Positions 16,517 through 33,271 of a DNA stretch of 33,459 nt are shown piece after piece. This DNA comes from Campylobacterales bacterium. GTDB taxonomy: Bacteria; Campylobacterota; Campylobacteria; Campylobacterales; QNZT01. Positions within the stretch are counted from its first letter, which is position 1. Each line of letters opens with the position of its first letter. The stretch lies in NCBI GenBank assembly GCA_027023405.1, contig JALVVN010000025.1, positions 1 to 33,459 of the forward strand, written 5' to 3'. The notes beneath the pieces were generated by a model that had not been told where the DNA came from, ran no database searches, and saw only the letters and a list, made by a program, of their open reading frames with translations. The position numbers were made by a program, and so were the translations under genes.

Positions 16517-17455
16517 CTAATAACTCTCCAGCGTTTCAAAGCGCCATCCGCGTTGCTGTAAAAGCGCGATGAGTCGTCTGAGTTTGGCTTTGCCGTTGAA
16601 GCGATCTTTGAAGGTAAAGTCGTGCATGAGGAGGATACATTTTCCTCGTTTGTGCGTTTTGTGACGGCGATAGATTTGTTCGATTGCATCGGCGATTTGG
16701 CGGGGGGACTTGTAGAGTTTGCCGGTATGCGGATCATAATCCCACTGATAATCCCAACCGAAAATATCAAACCCCCTCCGATCCAAAGCGTCATACACAT
16801 GCGCTTCACGACTGCTTCGTATCGCAGGATCATTTCGTACGATTCGAGGGAGTCGAAAGACATTGCGACCGGCTAACCGACAACATTTTTGCACATGCGC
16901 TTCATCATAACGGCGCAATTTTCTCTCCATCTTTTCTATATCTCTGATGACGCATTGTTTGTGGGCATAAAAATCTCGGTAGTGTCCGTTTGCGTGAGAG
17001 TAGGTGTGATTTGCGACGAGGATGTTGGGTGCGTCGATCGCACGCAAAAAGAGTCGTTTGCGATAACGGCTCAGGTCGACATGCCTTCCGATCATAAACA
17101 TCGTCGCATCGACACCGGTTTCGTTGAGTACGGAGATGACATTTTGGGTGCCGTTGAGCGGTCCGTCATCAAAGGTGAGATAGATGCGTTTAGGCGCGTG
17201 CGCATCGGTAATGATAATACGATGTTTGCGCCTTTTTTTCTGTATATGATGCGGATGATAGGAGCGCTTGACCTCTTGACCCAAAATTTGCTCATCTTTG
17301 GCACTCTCTTTGGGGATTGCATAGGAGTGTTCTTGCGGTTCATTGTTGTAGGGCGAGAGGGTGCCGTCACCATTGACAAACATCCATTGAGCGTGGAGTA
17401 CTGAAACAGTGAGTAGCTGTAGAGCGACAAGGAGTATATGATATTTGATGCGCAT
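16517..17455 (-). CDS. Exported NodB-type polysaccharide deacetylase
   Basis: A 312-aa protein with a signal peptide (~1-22) and a polar linker of about 60 residues. A NodB domain starts at IYLTFDDGPLNGT, with the catalytic Asp pair in TFDDGP (94-99). The metal-binding HTYSH follows at 150-154, and LLMHD is the C-terminal motif. All core metal and catalytic residues are present, so it should remove N- or O-acetyl groups from an envelope or extracellular polysaccharide. The substrate is unknown; peptidoglycan or an amino-sugar exopolysaccharide are options. It is divergent from modA across 61 bp and ends next to the ISL3 remnant. Confidence 0.88.
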   Translation of the reverse strand: MRIKYHILLVALQLLTVSVLHAQWMFVNGDGTLSPYNNEPQEHSYAIPKESAKDEQILGQEVKRSYHPHHIQKKRRKHRIIITDAHAPKRIYLTFDDGPLNGTQNVISVLNETGVDATMFMIGRHVDLSRYRKRLFLRAIDAPNILVANHTYSHANGHYRDFYAHKQCVIRDIEKMERKLRRYDEAHVQKCCRLAGRNVFRLPRIVRNDPAIRSSREAHVYDALDRRGFDIFGWDYQWDYDPHTGKLYKSPRQIADAIEQIYRRHKTHKRGKCILLMHDFTFKDRFNGKAKLRRLIALLQQRGWRFETLESY

Positions 17456-17516
17456 TTTGGCATCTTAACAAATTTGTGCTAAATGTGTTAAAATAGTCAA
17501 AAACAAAAGGATATAT

Positions 17517-18269
17517 ATGAGGCAAATCTTTGTGCTTGTACTTCTCTTTCCTCTTTTTTTGCAGGCAGAGACTCTTACGATCTTCGCCGCAAGTGATCTT
17601 AAATTTGCTCTTGATAAGATCGTCAACGCTTTTGAGCAAGCTCACCCGACGGATAAGATCAAGATGATCTACGGATCATCGGGCAAAGGAATGGTGCAGA
17701 TCGAGCGAGGTGCGCCTTTTGATCTCTACTTTAGTGCCAATATGGACTATGTGCAAAAGCTCTACAAAAAGGGTGACATTGTCACTGAACCCAAACTCTA
17801 TGCGATTGGTCGATTGGTGCTTTGGAGTAAAAATACGCACTTTGACCCCAAAAAGGGTTTTGATCAGCTTCGCGAACCGTGGGTCAAACACATCGCCATC
17901 GCCAATCCCGCACACGCACCCTATGGTGAAAAGGCGAAAGAAGCACTCATCAATGCCAAGATCTACGATGCGATCTCCTCTAAAATCATTTTGGGGGAGA
18001 ATATCTCACAAACAGCCAACTTCGTAGCGACTCAGGCGGCGGATATTGGTGTCATCGCGCTCTCACTTGTCAAAGCACCGACGATTGCACAGAGTAAATA
18101 TGGTGCATATTTTCTCATCGATGCGAAATTTCACGAACCGCTTCGGCAGGGCTACGGCATCACAAAGGTGGGTGCTGACAAACCCTTGGCCAAGAAATTT
18201 TTTGACTATTTTCATACGCCGGAAGTCCAAGCGGTGATGCAAAAATATGGATTCAAAGTAGAGCAGTGA
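17517..18269 (+). CDS. modA: Molybdate ABC transporter substrate-binding protein
   Basis: A 250-aa periplasmic binding protein. The signal peptide is residues 1-17 (ending LQA). The mature start, ETLTIFAASDLKFALDKI, carries the ModA oxyanion-binding Ser. GSSGKGMVQIERGAPFDLYFSA is the conserved second binding segment, and ADIGVIALS is typical of the C-terminal lobe. It binds molybdate, or possibly tungstate, and delivers it to ModB. AAAGGA lies upstream of the ATG, with TAAAAT as a possible -10. The stop overlaps the modB start (GTGA). Confidence 0.93.
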   Translation: MRQIFVLVLLFPLFLQAETLTIFAASDLKFALDKIVNAFEQAHPTDKIKMIYGSSGKGMVQIERGAPFDLYFSANMDYVQKLYKKGDIVTEPKLYAIGRLVLWSKNTHFDPKKGFDQLREPWVKHIAIANPAHAPYGEKAKEALINAKIYDAISSKIILGENISQTANFVATQAADIGVIALSLVKAPTIAQSKYGAYFLIDAKFHEPLRQGYGITKVGADKPLAKKFFDYFHTPEVQAVMQKYGFKVEQ

Positions 18270-18931
18270 TCGACCTAACACCCTTTTGGCTCTCTTTCAA
18301 GCTGGCTACCGTTACGACGCTACTCCTTTTTATGGTAGCAGTGCCTTTGGCGTGGTGGCTCTATCACACCAAGTCGGTTGTAAAACCCTTTGTCGAGACG
18401 ATCAGTGCGCTTCCTATCGTATTGCCCCCATCGGTTTTGGGATTTTATCTGTTGTGGGCATTTGCGCCTGATTCATTAGTAGGGAAGATGCTCTTTGAGT
18501 GGTTGGATATCAAGCTGGTTTTTAGTTTTGCGGGATTGGTCGTGGCGAGTATGATCTATTCGTTCCCCTTTATGCTCCAACCGATCCAAAGCGGTTTTGA
18601 ATCCCTCTCCAAAGCGATGGTCGAAGCCAGTTTCTTAGCGGGTAAGGGGGAGTTTACGACCCTGCTTCGCGTCGCACTGCCCAATATCAAACCCTCACTG
18701 CTGACCGCACTCATCATCACTTTTGCCCACACGGTCGGGGAATTTGGGGTGGTGCTGATGGTCGGCGGAAGTATCCCTGACAAAACCCGTGTCGCATCAG
18801 TGGCGATCTATGATATGGTCGAAGCGATGGATTATAAGAGTGCCCATATTTACAGCGGATTGATGCTGATCTTTAGCTTTGTTGTGCTTTTGAGCGTCTA
18901 TCTGCTGAACCGAAGGATGAAGATCAAATGA
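18266..18931 (+). CDS. modB: Molybdate ABC transporter permease
   Basis: A 221-aa inner-membrane permease with about five helices. The cytoplasmic EAA loop is visible around EASFLAGKGEFTTLLRVALPNIKPSL, including the EA-x3-G core, followed by HTVGEFGVVLMVGG, typical of ModB. The start is GTG at 18266, overlapping the modA stop by 4 bp. The end overlaps modC by 4 bp. Both overlaps indicate translational coupling and near-equal synthesis. Confidence 0.94.
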   Translation: MIDLTPFWLSFKLATVTTLLLFMVAVPLAWWLYHTKSVVKPFVETISALPIVLPPSVLGFYLLWAFAPDSLVGKMLFEWLDIKLVFSFAGLVVASMIYSFPFMLQPIQSGFESLSKAMVEASFLAGKGEFTTLLRVALPNIKPSLLTALIITFAHTVGEFGVVLMVGGSIPDKTRVASVAIYDMVEAMDYKSAHIYSGLMLIFSFVVLLSVYLLNRRMKIK

Positions 18932-19728
18932 TAGAGATCGCCGTTCAAAAGCCACTCGGATCGTTTCTGCTTGATGTCCAAACCAAGATCAAAGAGGGGG
19001 AGTTTGTCGCTATCAGCGGGAAGAGCGGTAGCGGGAAAACGATACTGCTTCGTATCTTGGCGGGCTTGGAGTCGGCGCAGGGGCGGATCATTTTTGGGGA
19101 ACGGCTTTGGTTGGATGGAGAGAAGCAACTACCGGTACAACAGCGAAGTATAGGGTTTGTGACACAAGTGTATGGATTGTTTGAAAATATGACCGTGCTT
19201 GAGCAACTGCTCTTTGTCAGGCGCGATCGCCCTTTGGCTCAAAAGCTTTTGGAGATGACGCAACTACACGATCTCAGCGCCTCCTACCCTGTACAACTGA
19301 GTGGCGGGCAGAAACAGCGGGTAGCGCTCTGTCGCGCGATGATGCGATCGCCCAAACTGCTCCTACTCGATGAACCGCTTTCGGCACTGGATCAGGCATT
19401 GCGCGAGAAGTTGCAAGAGGAGATAGCCTTGATGCATCGTGAATTTGGGATGACGACACTGCTTGTGAGCCATGACAAACGGGAGATTTATCGCTTGGCG
19501 GATCGGATGGTTGAGATAGAGAGAGGACGGATCGTGCGAGAGAGTACCAAAGATGAGTGGTTGCAAGAGGAGCAAATATTAGAGGGGGAGGTGTTGGCAG
19601 TAGAGGAGGATCATCTAGCTGTTTTGGTAGGTGATCGGATCGTGCGTGTCGAGAGGAGCACGGATCACTATTTGTTGCACAAGGGAGATCATGTGCGCTT
19701 GAATGCGATGTTGTTTGAAGGAAAATAG
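18928..19728 (+). CDS. modC: Molybdate ABC transporter ATP-binding protein
   Basis: A 266-aa ATPase. Seen: Walker A GKSGSGKT (31-38), signature LSGGQKQRVALCRAM, Walker B LLLLDEPLSALD and the switch His in LLVSHD. At 266 aa it is shorter than E. coli ModC (352 aa): after the ATPase core there is only a short tail (EGEVLAVEEDHLAVLVGD) resembling part of one TOBE/Mop-like barrel. Molybdate feedback through a full Mop domain is therefore doubtful. It ends 1 bp before the next gene. Confidence 0.92.
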   Translation: MIEIAVQKPLGSFLLDVQTKIKEGEFVAISGKSGSGKTILLRILAGLESAQGRIIFGERLWLDGEKQLPVQQRSIGFVTQVYGLFENMTVLEQLLFVRRDRPLAQKLLEMTQLHDLSASYPVQLSGGQKQRVALCRAMMRSPKLLLLDEPLSALDQALREKLQEEIALMHREFGMTTLLVSHDKREIYRLADRMVEIERGRIVRESTKDEWLQEEQILEGEVLAVEEDHLAVLVGDRIVRVERSTDHYLLHKGDHVRLNAMLFEGK

Positions 19729-19729
19729 A

Positions 19730-21946
19730 GTGAGAAAGATTGTAGTTTTGTTATTGTGGATATTGGTGCCTTTAGGACTTATGGCGGATGGCGCACACCT
19801 AAAAGTAGAATTGGCACGGTTGGCATCAGGTGTGAAACTACACGCAATCAAAAGTGACGGGAGAGAGTTGCTGGCAAAAGAGGCGAATCCGACACTCTTT
19901 CGCATCGATCTCAAGAAACTCTCCGACGGTAAAATCTTTAAGCTGTTCTCCTCCAAAGGGTGGCACGGTATCAAAGTCAAACGACGCGATGAAGTGACGC
20001 AGGAGATCAGACTCTCACAGCCGACCGATGAGACACTTCCCCGGACACTTCAGATCATTATCACGATGCAGGTGCGTGTCGGCGAGGTGGATTGGGATCT
20101 GCGCGTAGAGGGAATAGGAAGCGATTTTAGCGTATTAGAAAGCCGTTTCCCGCTTATCGATCTCAAGCCGATGCGCGATGCGCGTCTTTTTGTACCCTAT
20201 CGATTTGGCAAGGTGATCCGAGATCCCTTGCATGATCTTGATTACGGTGACAACAAGCCAAATGACCACTTTCTCAACGCCGGTGCGGGGCTCTATCCGA
20301 TGGGTTGGGGTGCGACGATGCCCTATATGGCGTACTACGGTAGTGATCTTGGGCTCTTTTTGTGTGCGTGTGATAAAAAAGCCTCGATCAAGACGCTGAT
20401 CGCCAAAGGGCGGGGAGATTTTTTGCATATTGCGACCAAAGTTCCCGCGCCGAATATGGGGCGAGGGGGCAATGACTTTGCCTATCCGGGTCTGTTTCAG
20501 ATGCGTATTTATCACGGTGACTGGTATGAGGCGGCGCGTCTCTATCGATCGTGGGTACGCGCCAATGCCGACTACTATCCGAGAAATGATAGTGCACGCA
20601 CGGTACGACTCAAACGACTTAAAAGTGTCGATGTTTGGGCGACACAGCCACTCTGGAACGGGCACGGAAACTATTCAGCAAAAGTGATCGCAAAGATGAT
20701 GCGCGATCTCAAAAAGCGCTTGGGTACGGAGGTCGTTTTGGGTGCCTATTGGCTCTCACCGCACGATCGGGCAAATGAAGATGACTTTCCTCAGTTTTAC
20801 CCCTCCAAAACCGCTCTCACGCTCAACAAAAATCTCAAAAAAGCGTTCGGCGACAAAATATCGCTCTCACTCTACACAAACGGCTACCTCTATGACACCA
20901 AGATCGCTCACCCCGATCGCTTCGTGCCCCCTTTCTCCAAAGTGCGCCGTTTTAGTGCCAAAAAAGCTGACGGATCGCCCTATACCCAAAAGTGGATCGG
21001 CAACCGATTTGCGGTGATGTGTGCGACACAAAAGCCATGGCAGGATATTTTGGTGAATGTACATCGGCGCTTCGTGAGTCACAGCGGTGTAGATGGAGTG
21101 CTACTCGATCAGATCACCTCGACCAGCCCCAAGCTCTGTATGGATACCACTCACGGACACCCGATCGGGGGTGGGCACTACTGGCGTGAGGGCTACAAAA
21201 CGCTTCTCTCACGACTGCATCGTGTCTATCCGGAGGGGAGATACTTCGTAAGCGAGGGGTTTAATGACTCCCTGATGGATCAGATCGAGGGGTATGAAAC
21301 GATCCACTACATGACCCAAGATCAGGTGCCCGCAGTCCAAGTAGTCTATGGCGATCGGGCAAGCTTCATCGGTCCAAGATCAGGTACCAATACCTACAAA
21401 AACCAAACGATTCCCGACGATGAAGCGCTCTACGGCAAAACGGGAGAAGCATTTATCTTCGGATCGACGATCGGCTACTTTTACCCCGATCTCGGACATT
21501 CCCCACTCCCGGGTAGCCAACGCGCTAATGCTGTGGCGTATGTGAGAAAATTGGCACAGATGCACCACCGACTCGTCCGTTTCATCGCCTACGGTCAGAT
21601 GCAAAAACCGCTATACATCGCCCAAAAAGAGCGCATCACAGTCCCTGCCGATCGCTCACACTGGATACCCCAAGTCACGATGAAGGCGATCCAAAACAGC
21701 GTTTGGAGAGACAGATTGGGTAATATTGCCTGTATCTTCCTCAATGTCCAGACCCCCGATAGCCACAAGAAGATCAGTTTCGACATCGACTTTAACGGCA
21801 AACGATATGGACTAAACGGTGCGCTAAGACTCAAAGCAGTCACATCCGACGGGGAACGGGAACTGGGTAAAGTGGCTAACCACTTTCAACGACGCATCAC
21901 CCTTGATCCGGCGGATGTGGTGGCAATCGTGGTGTCGGAGGGGTAA
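19730..21946 (+). CDS. Large exported DUF6259-like glycosidase candidate
   Basis: About 738 aa from GTG at 19730, one base after the modC stop; starting here gives a clean signal peptide (RKIVVLLLWILVPLGLMA). Residues ~25-250 look like a beta-sandwich N-terminal domain. The middle (~280-560) has a TIM-barrel-like alternation with VDGVLLDQITS and YFVSEGFND, whose Asp and Glu are candidate catalytic residues. The C-terminal ~100 residues form a beta domain. This layout resembles DUF6259 and related glycoside hydrolase families; the fit is by pattern only and substrate is unknown. The last 197 bp occur again, diverged, at 22692-22888. Its coupling to modABC is odd for such an enzyme and may reflect insertion. 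Confidence 0.65.
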   Translation: MRKIVVLLLWILVPLGLMADGAHLKVELARLASGVKLHAIKSDGRELLAKEANPTLFRIDLKKLSDGKIFKLFSSKGWHGIKVKRRDEVTQEIRLSQPTDETLPRTLQIIITMQVRVGEVDWDLRVEGIGSDFSVLESRFPLIDLKPMRDARLFVPYRFGKVIRDPLHDLDYGDNKPNDHFLNAGAGLYPMGWGATMPYMAYYGSDLGLFLCACDKKASIKTLIAKGRGDFLHIATKVPAPNMGRGGNDFAYPGLFQMRIYHGDWYEAARLYRSWVRANADYYPRNDSARTVRLKRLKSVDVWATQPLWNGHGNYSAKVIAKMMRDLKKRLGTEVVLGAYWLSPHDRANEDDFPQFYPSKTALTLNKNLKKAFGDKISLSLYTNGYLYDTKIAHPDRFVPPFSKVRRFSAKKADGSPYTQKWIGNRFAVMCATQKPWQDILVNVHRRFVSHSGVDGVLLDQITSTSPKLCMDTTHGHPIGGGHYWREGYKTLLSRLHRVYPEGRYFVSEGFNDSLMDQIEGYETIHYMTQDQVPAVQVVYGDRASFIGPRSGTNTYKNQTIPDDEALYGKTGEAFIFGSTIGYFYPDLGHSPLPGSQRANAVAYVRKLAQMHHRLVRFIAYGQMQKPLYIAQKERITVPADRSHWIPQVTMKAIQNSVWRDRLGNIACIFLNVQTPDSHKKISFDIDFNGKRYGLNGALRLKAVTSDGERELGKVANHFQRRITLDPADVVAIVVSEG

Positions 21947-22017: not shown

Positions 22018-22557
22018 CTATTTCCATAGTTTGGCAAAGTTAATTTCGATCTCGCATTTTCCAAGCTCAAAAGTGGTTTTTTCATCGGTTGCGTCAAGCA
22101 TTTTAATATATCGTCCCTCTTTCAGTTCATAGACTTTGGCGATTTCGTCATCTGGATTGACCATAATATAGTATTTCACACCCTCCTGTTCATAAAGTGC
22201 ATATTTGAGTGTTGTATCTTTTTTGGCAGTCGCTTTTGAGAGTACTTCAAAAATCATAACAGGCGCTTTGGTGATATACGCACCTTCAGGTTCATAGCAA
22301 ACGACGAGATTATCCGGCTGAACGATAGTGTCTTCGGTAATCTTCCAGTCCACAGGAAGCAGAGCATGATATGTTGTACATGTTTCCAACTCTTCATCTA
22401 AAATTCTTGCAATTTTATTGCTAATTTTCTGATGTTTGATCATCGGTGCAGGACTCATAGCGTAAGGTATGCCCTCTATCAGCTCCCACTGATCCTCCCA
22501 CAGTTTATAGTCATCATATGTGTAGTGCGGAAAATCCTCTTTTTTGAGTGCACCCAT
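22018..22557 (-). CDS. Uma2-family (DUF820) putative endonuclease
   Basis: A 179-aa protein from the ATG at 22557, chosen because AAAGGAAC lies just upstream; longer frames lack a ribosome binding site. The Uma2 pattern is clear: YELIEG-like WELIEGIPYAMSPAP near the start, VQPDNLVV with Asp82, and VMIFEVLSKAT with Glu104. These are the acidic residues of the PD-(D/E)XK nuclease fold. YALYEQEGVKYYIMVNPDD closes the core. Uma2 genes are abundant in cyanobacteria and scattered elsewhere, and their biology is unresolved. It lies between two copies of the 3' end of the glycosidase gene, so it is probably acquired. Confidence 0.85.
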   Translation of the reverse strand: MGALKKEDFPHYTYDDYKLWEDQWELIEGIPYAMSPAPMIKHQKISNKIARILDEELETCTTYHALLPVDWKITEDTIVQPDNLVVCYEPEGAYITKAPVMIFEVLSKATAKKDTTLKYALYEQEGVKYYIMVNPDDEIAKVYELKEGRYIKMLDATDEKTTFELGKCEIEINFAKLWK

Positions 22558-22691
22558 TTTTGTTCCTTTGTAATTTTCTTGCTGTATTATAACATAAACA
22601 TAGCTTTTGCAAATATTGTTATACTTGACCAAACCCAAAATAAAAATGGCGAAAAAGAGCGAAAAAGAGGGGCAGGGCATGAAATTTAACT

Positions 22692-22888
22692 AGACCCCCG
22701 ATAGCCATCAGAAGATCAGCTTCGATATCGATTTTAAAGGTAAACGGTACGGACTAAACGGTGTGCTAAGACTCAAAGCAGTCACATCAGACGGGGAACG
22801 GGATCTGGGTAAAGTGGCTAACCACTTTCAACGACGCATCACCCTTGATTCGGCGGATGTGGTGGCAATCGTGGTGTCAGAGGGGTAA
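22692..22888 (+). pseudogene. Diverged 3'-end fragment of the glycosidase gene
   Basis: These 197 bp align without gaps to 21750-21946, the last 65 codons and stop of the large glycosidase. I count 14 mismatches (about 93% identity), 9 of them synonymous. The frame and stop are intact, but there is no start and no 5' part, so it is a fragment. The homology continues past the stop: GCCAAAGT and then TGAATCATGA at 22928-22958 match 21947-21980, with about 39 bp missing in the resident copy. Confidence 0.9.
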
Positions 22889-23199: not shown

Positions 23200-23325
23200 T
23201 CACCCCTTTACCCTCCACGCAGACGAAAATGCCCATTGAAAATTATACCCTCCCAACTCTCCTGTGACATTGAGACATTCGCCGAGGAAGTAGAGGTTTG
23301 GACACTTTTTGCTCATCATGGTTTG
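23200..23325 (-). pseudogene. Diverged 3'-end fragment of the YhiN-like flavoprotein gene
   Basis: The 111 bp at 23215-23325 align without gaps to 24310-24420, the C-terminal coding end of the full flavoprotein gene. There are 7 mismatches (about 94% identity), all synonymous. The fragment ends WRVKG and a TGA at 23200-23202, whereas the resident gene ends WRVEF because about 25 bp are missing there. There is no start or N-terminal part. It ends 10 bp from the antitoxin stop. Confidence 0.9.
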
Positions 23326-23335
23326 AGTTAGATTT

Positions 23336-23572
23336 TTATAAGTCCTGATCCCTATTTTTCTGCTTATCTAGCTTATCCAAAAGCTCTAACCCCCTCTTTT
23401 TATCTCCTTTGCTTGCCAAGCGCTCAAATCTAATTTTTGCATCATGTTGGGTGAGTGCTATCGTCGCAAGTTCATCAAAAAGTTTGTTGAGTGATATATT
23501 TTGACTTTTGGCATATTTTTTCAAGCGTTCATATTTGCTATCGGGGATTCTTAATGTCAATGTGCTCATCAT
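23336..23572 (-). CDS. Ribbon-helix-helix antitoxin candidate
   Basis: A 78-aa protein (or 77 aa from the second Met at 23569). STLTLRIPDSKYERLKKYAKSQNISLNKLFDELATIAL is a typical MetJ/Arc ribbon-helix-helix domain with the T-L-R-I DNA-binding strand. The tail is charged and likely to bind the toxin. AAAGGAAGAT precedes the ATG. It lies 20 bp downstream of a PIN-domain gene on the same strand, so the toxin gene comes first. It should neutralise the toxin and repress the operon. Confidence 0.82.
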   Translation of the reverse strand: MMSTLTLRIPDSKYERLKKYAKSQNISLNKLFDELATIALTQHDAKIRFERLASKGDKKRGLELLDKLDKQKNRDQDL

Positions 23573-23592
23573 ATCTTCCTTTATCTCTATTT

Positions 23593-24009
23593 TCAGAAGT
23601 TTTTTAAAAACTCTTTTGCTGTCAAAACTTTAAAATCAAAATGCAGTTCATTTGACTTTAAATCCTTGATGTTTTCTGTGATGATGTATCTACTGTTGCT
23701 AGCAACTGCCAACTCTACCAAAAAATTATCATCTGCATCTTTGAGATTTGGTCTCCACAGGTAGAAAATTTCATTGTATGCACAAGTAGATAAAAAAGCC
23801 TGAAATAGCTCCTCTTGCTCTTCTATCGAAAGAGAACACTGTTTTTGAATAGATACTCTTTTCATAACAGCTTCATACTCAACAAATAGCGCAGAACTAA
23901 TCTGAGGAGATATCTCCTCTAAAAGAGCAAGTCTGATAATCTCACGACTTGTCCCGTCCTGACTGATTAATGCTGAAATCCATACATTTGTATCTATGAC
24001 CAAATTCAT
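23593..24009 (-). CDS. PIN-domain toxin (COG1569-type)
   Basis: A 138-aa PIN-domain ribonuclease candidate. The acidic metal-binding residues are in place: Asp6 in VIDTNVW, Glu44 in LFVEYEAV, and Asp91/93/94 in LKDADDNFLVELA, then YIITENIKDL. This matches the 'putative toxin-antitoxin system toxin, PIN family' group (COG1569). The ATG has no ribosome binding site. A possible promoter (TTGCTT, 17 nt, TATCAT) ends 5 nt before it. The MITE-like element at 24059-24218 lies 50 bp upstream. It pairs with the downstream RHH gene. Confidence 0.85.
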   Translation of the reverse strand: MNLVIDTNVWISALISQDGTSREIIRLALLEEISPQISSALFVEYEAVMKRVSIQKQCSLSIEEQEELFQAFLSTCAYNEIFYLWRPNLKDADDNFLVELAVASNSRYIITENIKDLKSNELHFDFKVLTAKEFLKNF

Positions 24010-24053: not shown

Positions 24054-24223
24054 AAAATCCCAAATCTAGCAATAGAATTCTTTGAATTTGTATTATGCTC
24101 GTATTCGTGGGGTTTGCATCAAATTTGAGTCGCACCCGTAGGTTCGGCGATAATTTTATGTAAAGCCCAAGGATACGATGATGATACAAAGTCATGAATT
24201 TCTATTTCGAGATTTGGGAAAAT
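24054..24223 (-). mobile_element. 160-bp MITE-like element, copy 1, with 5-bp target duplication
   Basis: The element is 24059-24218 (160 bp). Its termini are inverted repeats based on CCCAAATCTCGAAATAGAA; one end carries three or so mismatches (CCCAAATCTAGCAATAGAA). The 5-bp AAAAT flanks it on both sides (24054-24058 and 24219-24223). It is 96% identical (7 mismatches) to copy 2 in inverted orientation. No transposase is encoded, so it would move with help from elsewhere. Confidence 0.88.
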
Positions 24224-24294: not shown

Positions 24295-25437
24295 TCAAAA
24301 CTCTACTCTCCATGCAGACGAAAATGCCCACTGAAAATTATACCCTCCTAATTCTCCCGTGACATTGAGGCATTCGCCGAGGAAGTAGAGGTTTGGGCAC
24401 TTTTTGCTCATCATGGTTTGGGGGTCGATCTCGTCTGTGGCGATGCCTCCTTTGGTCACTTCGGCTTTGGTGTAGCCAAAATTTCCTGCGGGGGCGAAGC
24501 GGTAGGATTTGATTCTTTGGAGTTGCTTTTGTTCGGTGGGTGAGTAGTCGTATAGCGGTTTGTCGGTGAGATCGGACGCATGGAGAAATGCCTTGACAAA
24601 GCGTTTGGGGAGTTTGAGGGCGCTTGAGGGGTGTTTTTTGGAGTTGAAAAAGGGTTTGTCGAGTCTCTGTTTTGGGGCGAAGTCGAGGGTGATCTCACCC
24701 TTTTGCCAATAGAGTGAAGTGTTGAGGATGAGGGGTCCGCTGATCCCTTTGTGGGCAAAGAGGAGATCGCCTTGGAGTCTTTTGCTGCCGATCTTGGCGG
24801 TGGCGTAGAGGGAGATACCGCTGAGATCCTTCATCCAAAACTGCTCTCTTTGAAGTGTCAATCCTACAAGAGCAGGAGCGGTCGGCACGATCGTATGACC
24901 GAATGATTGTGCGATCTCATAAGCAATCCCGCTCGCGCCTATCGAGGGAAAGCTCAGCCCTCCACTCGCGACGATGAGTATATCGGCGCTATATTTGTCA
25001 TCGATGATGAAGTGATTATAGTGTTTAGTGACACTTTTTACTTTGTATCGAGTAACGCGTGTCACTTTATGCTTATAAATAGGGGCTTTAAGGTTTTTGG
25101 TCAGAAGCGTGATGAGTTCTTGGGAGCTGTGGGGGCAGAAGTATTGATCTCGCTTTTGTAGGATCGGCGTGAGTCCGTGATCTTTGAGATAGTTCAGAAG
25201 ATCGTTTTGGTCAAAGTGTCGCAGGATCGGGGCGATGAAGTCGGGATCGCCGAGGTAGTGATCGGGCGAGAGGTGTTTGTTTGTGATGTTGCATTTGCCA
25301 CCGCCGGAGATCTTGATTTTTTGCGCGGGTAGTGGATTGGCATCGAGGAGTGCGATATCGTGATCTCTGAAGCGATTTGCCACCATCAATCCACTCGCAC
25401 CCGCGCCGATGATGAGAATTTTGTGGTGTTTGGGCAT
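24295..25437 (-). CDS. YhiN/HI0933-family NAD(P)/FAD-dependent oxidoreductase
   Basis: A 380-aa flavoprotein. The dinucleotide-binding motif GAGASG is at 11-16, and KIKISGGGKCNITN at ~41-54 is the family signature. ADILIVASGGLSFPSIGASG is the second family block. FAPAGNFGYTKAEVTKGGI and LYFLGECLNVTGELGGYNFQ close the FAD site. It is complete and close to the usual ~400 aa. The family's physiological substrate is not established. A TATAAT box and AAGGAA precede the ATG. The last residues (WRVEF) appear altered by a small deletion compared with the fragment at 23200-23325. It is divergent from the YgjP-like gene. Confidence 0.9.
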   Translation of the reverse strand: MPKHHKILIIGAGASGLMVANRFRDHDIALLDANPLPAQKIKISGGGKCNITNKHLSPDHYLGDPDFIAPILRHFDQNDLLNYLKDHGLTPILQKRDQYFCPHSSQELITLLTKNLKAPIYKHKVTRVTRYKVKSVTKHYNHFIIDDKYSADILIVASGGLSFPSIGASGIAYEIAQSFGHTIVPTAPALVGLTLQREQFWMKDLSGISLYATAKIGSKRLQGDLLFAHKGISGPLILNTSLYWQKGEITLDFAPKQRLDKPFFNSKKHPSSALKLPKRFVKAFLHASDLTDKPLYDYSPTEQKQLQRIKSYRFAPAGNFGYTKAEVTKGGIATDEIDPQTMMSKKCPNLYFLGECLNVTGELGGYNFQWAFSSAWRVEF

Positions 25438-29900: not shown

Positions 29901-32204
29901 CTAAGAGGATCGCTCCCTCCTTTTGACCTCTGTTCGCTCTTTCTTCACTTTTACACCCTCGATATAGCCGCTGATCTTTGGCATCTCATGCGCTATCCCC
30001 TCCGGCACTGTCTCAGAGTGGAGTTGCACGGCGCACTGTTTGTAGTTTGGTTCAAAAGATTTGGGGTCAAATTCGGGTATGGTGATGGCGTTGATCAGCT
30101 GTGTGTTGAAGTGAAAGGGTACAAAGATATTCCCCTCTCTCACGCTTTCGCTCACCTTGACGATCACATCATCGATCCGTCCTCTCGTGCCCGAAATCGA
30201 GATGCGATCTCCGCTTTTGACTTGGAGTTTGGACGCATCTTTGGGGCTGAGATCAATCCACGCTTCAGGGGCGAGATCGTCAAGAATTCCGATAGTTCCG
30301 GTTTTGGTGCGGGTGTGAAACTGCTCGACGGTTCGACCGGTGTTGAGTATCAGAGGTAAGTTTTCACATCGATCTTCGCTCAACGGTTGCCAATCAAGCG
30401 GGAGGAGTTTTGCTTTGCCATCTTTGGTAGGGCAGGGCATCTCTTCACTGTAAAGTCGCTTTGTACCTTTGGGTGCTTTTTCATTGCAGGGCCATTGGAT
30501 ACCGCCAAGCTCCTCGATCAGCTCATAGCTCATACCGCTATAATCGCACAATCGCCCTTTGCTCACCCGCTTGATCTCCTCAAAAACATCTCTTGGAGTG
30601 CGAATATCTTTAAAGAGCAACTCTTGCACACCGTCGAAGTAGCCCGAAAACTCCCGCACGATATCAAAGTCACTCTTGCTCTCTCCCATCGGCTCTACCG
30701 CTTTTTTGGCGTAGTTGCATCGTCTCTCGCTATTGGTATAGCACCCCTCTTTTTCACTCCAAGTTGCTGCCGCAAAGACCACATCGGCGATCTCTGCCGT
30801 ATCGGACATAAAGGCATCTTGTACGACAAGCAGATCGAGCTTTTTGAGTGCACTTCTTAGTCTGTTTTGATCGGGATAACTGACCAGTGGGTTAGTCGCT
30901 ACGACCCACAAAGCCTTGATCTCACCCCGATCAATCGCTTCGATGATCTGCGGATAGGCGTAGCCCCGTTTGGTAGGGATGAGATCGGTTGATACACCGA
31001 TGATCGAGGCAAACTCCGCTCGGTGTGCATCGTTGGCATAGTCACGATAGCCGGGTATGGATGAGGTAAAGCCAAACTCTCTTGTACCCATGGCATTGCA
31101 CTGTCCGGTGATCGACATCGGAGATGATCCCTCTTTGCCAAGATTTCCGGTGATGAGGGCGAGGTTGCAGATCGCTGAGACGGTATCGGTGCCGAGGGCG
31201 CTTTGGTTGACTCCCATCGTCCAAGCACTCATCGCTCGATCAGCCCCCGCATAGATCCTTGCCAACTCATAGAGTGTCTTGACATCGATACCGGTGATAT
31301 TGGCGACCTCTTGCGGAGGGTAGTTTGCCATGATATGTTTACGAAATGCTTTGTATCCCTCCGTGCGATCGGCGATAAACTTCTCATCCTCCCATCCTTG
31401 CTCCATGATGATGTAACACAAACCGTTGATAAGAGCGAGATCGCTTCGCGGTTTGAGCGGCACGAAGATATCCGCCATCTGAGAAGTTTTGGATTTTCGT
31501 GGATCGATGACGATGATCGTCGGTTTTTTGCCGTTTGTCTTTTGGTTTTTGGCGATGTGAAGCTTGAGGATCGGGTGATTGTCGGCGATATTAGCGCCGA
31601 TAAGCATGATCACATTCGCCTTTTCAAAATCCTCATAACACCCTACCGGTCCGTCACTTCCAAAGCTTTGCTTGTACCCCATCACCGCACTTGCCATGCA
31701 GAGGGTGGTATTTCCGTCGTAGTTGTTGGTGCCTAGACCTAGCTGGACAAACTTCCCGAGTGCATAAAACTCTTCAGTCAAAAGCTGACCGGTTGAGATG
31801 ACAGCAACCGCACCCTTGCCATGTTTGGCTTGGATCTCTTGAAATCTCTTAGCGGTAGTAGAAAAAGCCTCATCCCATGAGACGGGAGAGAGTGTGTCGT
31901 TTTTTCGGATGAGAGGCTGGGTAACGCGACTCTTTGCCCTCACCATACGATGCTCACTCAAACCTTTGGGGCAGAGTGTACCCATATTGACCGGATGTTT
32001 GGGATCGCCTTTGGAGTAGGTAGGTTCACCGTTTTTGACCCCGACATACATCCCGCACCCCACACCACAATATCCGCAAGTGGTTCGCACCCATTTGTCC
32101 GGCGCTTTGCTTTTGGCGACCTTGCCAAAGATCGGATCATCGACGAGAGCATATTTATCCTCTTTGATATCCAAGCCTAAAAAATCTTTTAATTTCTCTA
32201 GCAT
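29901..32204 (-). CDS. Assimilatory-type molybdopterin nitrate reductase, catalytic subunit
   Basis: A 767-aa Mo-bisPGD enzyme. The N-terminal 4Fe-4S motif is Cys43-x2-Cys46-x3-Cys50-x27-Cys78. The molybdenum ligand Cys169 is in NTTLCMASAVMGY, as in NarB/NasA/NapA enzymes and unlike the Asp ligand of NarG. There is no twin-arginine signal, so it is cytoplasmic, as expected for assimilatory nitrate reductases. The C-terminal molybdopterin-dinucleotide domain is present (TGRTVEQFHTRTKTG and EPNYKQCAVQL). Formate dehydrogenase is less likely because no selenocysteine or matching Cys context is seen. It stands alone. A CCCCT/AGGGG hairpin overlaps the ribosome binding region near 32210-32227. It depends on Mo supply from moaC and modABC. 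Confidence 0.85.
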   Translation of the reverse strand: MLEKLKDFLGLDIKEDKYALVDDPIFGKVAKSKAPDKWVRTTCGYCGVGCGMYVGVKNGEPTYSKGDPKHPVNMGTLCPKGLSEHRMVRAKSRVTQPLIRKNDTLSPVSWDEAFSTTAKRFQEIQAKHGKGAVAVISTGQLLTEEFYALGKFVQLGLGTNNYDGNTTLCMASAVMGYKQSFGSDGPVGCYEDFEKANVIMLIGANIADNHPILKLHIAKNQKTNGKKPTIIVIDPRKSKTSQMADIFVPLKPRSDLALINGLCYIIMEQGWEDEKFIADRTEGYKAFRKHIMANYPPQEVANITGIDVKTLYELARIYAGADRAMSAWTMGVNQSALGTDTVSAICNLALITGNLGKEGSSPMSITGQCNAMGTREFGFTSSIPGYRDYANDAHRAEFASIIGVSTDLIPTKRGYAYPQIIEAIDRGEIKALWVVATNPLVSYPDQNRLRSALKKLDLLVVQDAFMSDTAEIADVVFAAATWSEKEGCYTNSERRCNYAKKAVEPMGESKSDFDIVREFSGYFDGVQELLFKDIRTPRDVFEEIKRVSKGRLCDYSGMSYELIEELGGIQWPCNEKAPKGTKRLYSEEMPCPTKDGKAKLLPLDWQPLSEDRCENLPLILNTGRTVEQFHTRTKTGTIGILDDLAPEAWIDLSPKDASKLQVKSGDRISISGTRGRIDDVIVKVSESVREGNIFVPFHFNTQLINAITIPEFDPKSFEPNYKQCAVQLHSETVPEGIAHEMPKISGYIEGVKVKKERTEVKRRERSS

Positions 32205-32277: not shown

Positions 32278-33069
32278 TTAATCACATGAAATTCGGAAGC
32301 TACCGTCAAGTTCTTTGGGTAAAAAGAGTGTGTAGAGTCCAAGTTTTTTCGATTCATCGCAGATGTCGTTTTTATGATCTAGATCATCATATTCGACATT
32401 GAGTACAGGTTTGTTTTGGAGGATAAAGGGCTTGAGCATTGCGCATTCATGGTAGTGGTGACACCCCTCATTGACCGCAAAGTCGAAATGATCAACCAAT
32501 TGCTTGATTTGATTTAAATCATTTTTAAGCCCCACCAAAAGACCGAGTTTGTGAGCGGTTTGAGCGAGAAAAGTGTTGTATGCGAGCTGATCTTGGGCGG
32601 TGAGCGCAAATCCCGTATCGTTGGTGTAACCATCGACATTATCAGGCTCGACACCGTCGCAACCCTTCTTTTTAGCCAGCTGCATCCGCTCTCTCATAAT
32701 CGCTTTGACATTCGCATCCCGAATATCCAACCATCGCTCATCCCATCCATCCATCTTTTTGCCCAAGACGCTCGAGTGAAACTTACCGCTATCATCCCGC
32801 CACTTTTCAAAACTACCCGCACTAAAATAGCAGATCACTTTTTTGCCTTGAGAGTGGAGCTTTTGGATCCGTGTTTTAGGCGTGTCGAAAAGATCGATAT
32901 CGTAGATATCCACATTAAAGGAGCTATTGACCTTGCCGGTGAGTTGCCAATGCCAGCTACTTTTGGGATCAAGTTTTTTTGACATTGTTTGGCTTGTCCG
33001 ATCTGCTGAGTTTGATGGGGAGCAACTAAGAGTGAGGAGCGATAGGGTGAGTAGGAGAATTGTTTTCAT
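32278..33069 (-). CDS. GH114-like (endo-alpha-1,4-polygalactosaminidase family) lipoprotein
   Basis: A 263-aa lipoprotein; the lipobox LTLSC places the lipidated Cys at 16. The body matches the GH114 / TM1410-like TIM barrel: KVICYFSAGSFEKWRDD after the first strand, DGWDERWLDIRD, then CDGVEPDNVDGY (137-148) with conserved acidic residues, and FAVNEGCHHYHEC later. Characterised relatives cleave alpha-1,4-linked galactosamine polymers, so the target may be an amino-sugar exopolysaccharide. The ATG has no ribosome binding site; TAGAAT lies 6 nt upstream (33076-33081), suggesting a leaderless mRNA. MITE copy 2 begins 38 bp upstream of the start. Confidence 0.82.
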   Translation of the reverse strand: MKTILLLTLSLLTLSCSPSNSADRTSQTMSKKLDPKSSWHWQLTGKVNSSFNVDIYDIDLFDTPKTRIQKLHSQGKKVICYFSAGSFEKWRDDSGKFHSSVLGKKMDGWDERWLDIRDANVKAIMRERMQLAKKKGCDGVEPDNVDGYTNDTGFALTAQDQLAYNTFLAQTAHKLGLLVGLKNDLNQIKQLVDHFDFAVNEGCHHYHECAMLKPFILQNKPVLNVEYDDLDHKNDICDESKKLGLYTLFLPKELDGSFRISCD

Positions 33070-33101: not shown

Positions 33102-33271
33102 ATCTCCCCAAATCTCGAAATAGAAATTCATGACTTTGCATCATCATCGCATCCTTGGGCTTTACATAAAATTATCGTCGAACCTATGGGTGCGACTCAA
33201 ATTTGATGCAAACCCCACGAATACAAGCATAATACAAATTCAAAGAATTCTATTTCGAGATTTGGGATCTC
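33102..33271 (+). mobile_element. 160-bp MITE-like element, copy 2, with 5-bp target duplication
   Basis: The element is 33107-33266 (160 bp). Its ends are perfect 19-bp terminal inverted repeats (CCCAAATCTCGAAATAGAA). The 5-bp ATCTC flanks it on both sides (33102-33106 and 33267-33271). It is inverted relative to copy 1 at 24059-24218 and has 7 mismatches to it. No transposase is encoded. Confidence 0.92.

Follow-up and report, generated by a model that had tools for sequence, protein, structure and literature searches.

Fold and invariant acids suggest a glycosidase for a DUF6259 protein encoded directly behind modABC in a Campylobacterales bacterium

Three characterized enzymes are the closest described systems for the DUF6259 protein investigated here: NagBb from Bifidobacterium bifidum, an alpha-N-acetylgalactosaminidase of GH129; ZGAL_3152 (also DagB) from Zobellia, a GH129-like 3,6-anhydro-D-galactosidase; and FpGalNase from Flavonifractor plautii, an alpha-galactosaminidase. 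ZGAL_3152 is located in a carrageenan gene cluster and was separated from GH129 by the authors of its study, where its Asp486 was equated with the catalytic Asp435 of NagBb and Glu517 mutants were reported to be inactive (PMC5698469). FpGalNase is a three-domain enzyme whose barrel is termed a GH36 domain by its authors (PMC11762096). In the open literature searched, no paper naming DUF6259 or PF19773 was found, and searches there for GH66 dextranase and for Campylobacterota glycoside hydrolases in connection with exopolysaccharide and a hydrothermal setting returned nothing.

The reading frame behind modC and its family

The window, i.e. the whole stretch of DNA that was analysed, comprises 33,459 nucleotides of a Campylobacterales contig (JALVVN010000025.1). 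The genes and sites around the end of its modABC operon are:

17465..17494, + strand: promoter-like site before modA (TTAACA-18-TAAAAT, extended -10; consensus match only)
17517..18269, + strand: modA, molybdate-binding protein (TIGR01256, E 2.5e-58, passes the curated cut-off)
18266..18931, + strand: modB, permease (TIGR02141, E 1.6e-68, passes the curated cut-off)
18928..19728, + strand: modC, ATPase (ABC_tran, E 7e-30; TIGR02142, E 4e-51, below the curated cut-off)
19730..21946, + strand: DUF6259 gene, from GTG at 19730 to TAA at 21944-21946, 738 aa; predicted exported retaining alpha-glycosidase
19730..19789, + strand: putative signal peptide region of the DUF6259 protein (about residues 1-20, judged by eye from the sequence)

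The modA/modB and modB/modC pairs overlap by 4 bases each, and a single base separates the modC stop (TAG, 19726-19728) from the GTG of the DUF6259 gene. The preliminary description had the length of 738 aa and this GTG right, one base past the modC stop, but let the gene begin at 19726, which is the modC stop codon itself; the frame read from there is full of stops. An alternative in-frame ATG at 19703 would overlap modC. The GTG appears to be the better start because AAGGA lies 7 bases upstream of it and because the resulting protein begins with VRKIVVLLLWILVPLGLMADG, which by eye has the pattern of a signal peptide and suggests export. With a gap of 1 nt and a ribosome-binding site in place, read-through from modABC is likely, and co-transcription of the DUF6259 gene with the operon is plausible on these grounds. 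A second, weaker promoter-like site is found inside modC; over both strands of the region five such sites were counted against a shuffle mean of 5.7, which is no excess over chance.

The protein had been called DUF6259-like; it is a member of the family itself, as residues 256-548 match Pfam DUF6259 (PF19773) with an E-value of 3.1e-48 and a score of 164.9 bits (cut-off 28.7), far beyond chance. For the window protein, neither GH129 (PF11308) nor GH66 (PF13199) gave a row at E ≤1, where the HMMER filters drop most rows above 0.1. GH66 matches below the cut-off were seen in three other DUF6259 copies from the same genome and a genus-mate; a GH66 identity was dropped because the window protein has no match and the fold matches point elsewhere.

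Predicted fold, candidate catalytic acids and proposed mode of action

The AlphaFold2 model of the protein (pLDDT 89.9, pTM 0.92) comprises a beta-sandwich up to about residue 260, a (beta/alpha)8 TIM barrel up to about residue 620, and a second beta-sandwich, i.e. the sandwich-barrel-sandwich fold of GH129. With VIA-align, the best match was NagBb (Z 26.8, 3.4 Å over 551 residues, nearly the whole protein), followed by ZGAL_3152 (Z 23.7), FpGalNase (Z 23.4, likewise of three domains) and GH36 alpha-galactosidases (Z 21.7 and lower), with GlgE and GH13-type amylases further down (Z 18.9-19.7). The top matches in Foldseek were NagBb, ZGAL_3152, FpGalNase and GH101. The protein is only about 9–14% identical to the solved enzymes (13% for NagBb, 11% for ZGAL_3152 and 12% for FpGalNase), so the substrate is not readable from the fold.

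Remote homology was also found at the sequence level once relatives were included. The single protein searched against the sequences of solved structures gave two lipocalin rows only, with E-values near 1, and a single-sequence search of genome contigs gave no confirmed relative. A search with a four-sequence alignment found 95 relatives. Eighty loci were retained, and open frames were extracted at 72 of them. Together with the window protein, 47 of these frames, all from named genome records, make up an alignment of 48 sequences; several were trimmed to the region of the match and lack long N-terminal extensions. The profile of this alignment retrieved ZGAL_3152 entries at E-values of 1.3e-10 to 4e-10; ZGAL_3152 was the sole solved protein at E <1e-9, it has the same domain order as the DUF6259 protein, and the only other row at E ≤1 was a chance-like match (0.37). 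In a profile-profile comparison with seven proteins matching Pfam GH129 (seven of the ten such genes found in 36 genomes), an E-value of 1.1e-10 and a probability of 97% were obtained over 504 columns.

Catalytic acids usually sit at the ends of barrel strands. In the predicted model, strands 456-460 and 505-509, which are successive strands of the barrel, end in Asp460 and Glu509, and both acids are among the 16 invariant positions of the alignment (48 of 48 sequences):

21107..21109, + strand: Asp460 codon, proposed nucleophile (strand end, 48/48, aligned with the GH129 Asp)
21254..21256, + strand: Glu509 codon, proposed acid/base (strand end, 48/48, aligned with ZGAL_3152 position 517)

Asp460 fell on the invariant Asp of all seven GH129 sequences in each of three MAFFT modes, and this Asp we infer to be the counterpart of Asp435 of NagBb (PMC5698469). 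The profile match to ZGAL_3152 consists of two stretches, both of which leave Asp460 outside. Glu509 was aligned with ZGAL_3152 position 517, in a stretch that is weak alone (i-E 0.043) and with the chain index assumed to equal the numbering of the paper; in none of the three MAFFT modes did it coincide with the Glu that is invariant among the seven GH129 sequences. The pair would presumably act as nucleophile (Asp460) and acid/base (Glu509).

The preliminary description had called the protein a glycosidase candidate that would lose its footing if the structure lacked a glycosidase-like barrel or an acidic pair; the model has both, and together with the fold matches to glycosidases this makes a strong case for a glycosidase, likely a retaining alpha-glycosidase. 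A barrel protein with lost or altered catalysis that only binds sugar would fit the fact that no paper reporting DUF6259 activity was found in the open literature searched, but is very unlikely in view of the invariance of Asp460 and Glu509 in all 48 sequences from 12 phylum-level groups.

We propose that the protein is exported and hydrolyses glycosides, its three-domain plan being that of the GH129/GH101/GH36 group. It would act as a retaining, probably exo-acting alpha-glycosidase, with Asp460 attacking the anomeric carbon and Glu509 donating a proton to the departing sugar. As its target, a terminal alpha-linked galacto-configured sugar (galactose, galactosamine, GalNAc or 3,6-anhydrogalactose) would be most likely, carried by an extracellular polysaccharide of the cell itself or of neighbouring cells. 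Transcripts of modABC may extend into the gene, which would have no part in molybdate uptake, and the gene's position behind modC would stem from a local rearrangement in this lineage. As a whole, an exported retaining alpha-glycosidase with a galacto-type target, brought next to modC by local rearrangement, is the explanation we favour, and we consider it reasonably probable. A widespread "domain of unknown function" thereby gains a testable enzyme assignment, with a fold, a proposed nucleophile and acid/base, and a likely sugar type.

Distribution, descent and genomic neighbourhood

In a sample of 397 Campylobacterota genomes that spans 68 genera, DUF6259 was found only in the genome of the window, and at the family level in two of 22 genomes, both of the window's genus (the genus-mate was outside the 397-genome sample). 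The family is thus as unusual in this phylum as had been supposed, and a small Campylobacterales genus is marked as its carrier, the other sampled genomes of the phylum being without it. Within the genus, two of three genomes are positive (the third is 57% complete), each with two copies. In a tree of 49 sequences covering 12 phylum-level groups, the window gene paired with the FN3-headed copy of the genus-mate and the second copies of both genomes paired together, each with a support of 100/100; the two gene lineages thus look old in the genus. The four genus copies form a clade of eight (100/100) with one sequence each from Thermoanaerobaculia, Methylococcales, Flavobacteriales and Chlorobiota. 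Composition gives no support for a recent transfer of the gene, its GC content (51.5%, with 57.6% at third positions) being like that of modB and modC.

Linkage to modABC was not conserved. A modB match was found in 45 other genomes, and stretches around mod genes were taken from 20 of these (modC matches below 33% identity were excluded from the table; one stretch stops inside modC and another has 0.5 kb beyond it), and DUF6259 was found in none of the 20 (tblastn, E ≤1e-8); ten other window proteins were also absent from these stretches at the same threshold. In the genus-mate (MAG JALWLO01), contig 3 carries modB, and the DUF6259 copies are on contigs 67 and 122. A common, conserved modABC-linked gene, the outcome named beforehand as contrary to the glycosidase proposal, is hence not what these genomes contain, and the adjacency looks incidental. 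The gene could instead be a true part of a molybdate-regulated unit, e.g. one switching surface polysaccharide with the mode of respiration, as the 1-base gap after modC, the overlapping mod genes, the promoter-like site before modA and a molybdenum oxidoreductase gene 8 kb downstream of the DUF6259 gene would suggest; with the linkage seen in one genome only, absent from all 20 mod stretches of relatives, and with orthologue and modB on different contigs in the genus-mate, we regard this as highly improbable. A functional tie to molybdate found no support, and the locus cautions that a 1-base gap to an operon is a poor guide to function where, as here, the neighbour is not conserved.

The molybdopterin oxidoreductase gene (29901-32204) is at a distance of about 10 kb from modC. 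Its product is near the formate dehydrogenase and NasC models but reaches neither curated cut-off.

For the favoured glycosidase, the neighbourhoods in the genus-mate count as support: copy 1, the orthologue of the window gene, is preceded by two FN3-headed proteins with beta-helix-type matches (Beta_helix below the cut-off in one, DUF1565 above the cut-off in the other), and copy 2 is divergent from a Wzz-domain gene that is followed by a glycosyltransferase. The second DUF6259 copy of the window's genome is surrounded by unrelated genes. Among relatives outside the genus, no common partner was found among 20 neighbouring proteins from five hand-chosen loci; most of these neighbours have no sugar link, which counts against the favoured reading, the exceptions being an alpha-amylase-type gene (locus L018) and a polysaccharide-deacetylase-domain protein (locus L047).

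As a separate observation, the genus-mate carries three consecutive genes with a common FN3-type head (L091:8527-16181), attached to the two beta-helix-type proteins and to DUF6259. The heads are 212-nt repeats with 74-80% identity, a modular spread of a common head.

Two further genes of the window are of interest with respect to exopolysaccharide:

16517-17455, divergent from modA: polysaccharide deacetylase
32278-33069: GH114 protein

GH114, GH135, GH166 and GH191 include galactosaminidases that cut galactosamine polymers, and one fungal GH114 enzyme is reported to have no activity on Pel (PMC12054363). The DUF6259 protein could then be an alpha-galactosaminidase trimming the cell's own Pel-type matrix (alpha-1,4 GalN/GalNAc) together with PelA and the GH114 and deacetylase products of the window. 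In line with this, NagBb and FpGalNase, two of the best fold matches, act on alpha-GalNAc or alpha-GalN, the window holds GH114 and polysaccharide deacetylase genes, and the genome contains a Pel locus (L129), in which PelD, DUF3492/PelF, PelG, a 915-aa GH114-domain protein and a PelB barrel were matched. The genus-mate (G001, 92% complete), however, lacks PelG as well as GH114 although both orthologues are present; PelG was found in only two of 46 DUF6259 genomes, hand-picked from the 80 DUF6259 loci; and among 59 relatives, the window's own genome included, 19 have PelG and 29 have GH114, yet only the own genome has DUF6259. As PelG and GH114 are common in relatives without DUF6259, the Pel genes here carry little weight. 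Co-occurrence having failed across the family, the Pel link was kept as a minority reading for this genome, and an unlikely one. Similarly doubtful is a wider proposal, in which the whole of DUF6259 would form a so far unrecognised family of glycoside hydrolases within the GH129/GH101/GH36 group, spread over at least 10 phyla, and, in addition, the two anciently split copies of the genus would be exo-acting alpha-galactosaminidases remodelling the cell's own exopolysaccharide.

Duplicated gene ends downstream of the DUF6259 gene

Downstream of the DUF6259 gene, two host genes each have a second copy of their 3' end, and the copies flank low-GC genes:

22692..22888, + strand: truncated second copy of the last 197 bp of the DUF6259 gene, 93% identical
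24295-25437, - strand: HI0933-type flavoprotein gene, the next host gene

The DUF6259 3' end (21750-21946) and its repeat at 22692-22888 flank a low-GC Uma2 gene (22018-22680). The copies have 14 differences, 11 of them at third codon positions; with a dN of 0.035 against a dS of 0.22, the tail of the gene diverged under protein-level selection, a further point for the explanation favoured above. Likewise, 120 bp of the flavoprotein 3' end are present at 23206-23325 and 24301-24420, flanking an RHH-like/PIN pair (23336-24009), with nine differences, eight at third positions (dN 0.010, dS 0.46). The cassette genes have GC contents of 34.5-38.5%, compared to 49.9-51.5% for the two host genes. 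In the simplest reading, DNA of a related strain recombined within each host gene and was joined illegitimately downstream, so that a cassette was gained and the old tail was left behind; the process would be homology-facilitated illegitimate recombination (PMC3240628, PMC5361080). We rejected the idea that Uma2 is a mobile element which invariably copies gene tails, as the other four of five Uma2 loci have no direct repeat of at least 30 nt within about 1.5 kb on each side (less at contig ends).

The low-GC RHH-like/PIN pair is toxin-antitoxin-like. Beyond it, a MITE-like 167-nt element occurs twice in the window in opposite orientation (24057-24223 and 33102-33268, 95% identical). It was absent from the eight other loci compared, and one of its copies forms a visible imperfect palindrome.
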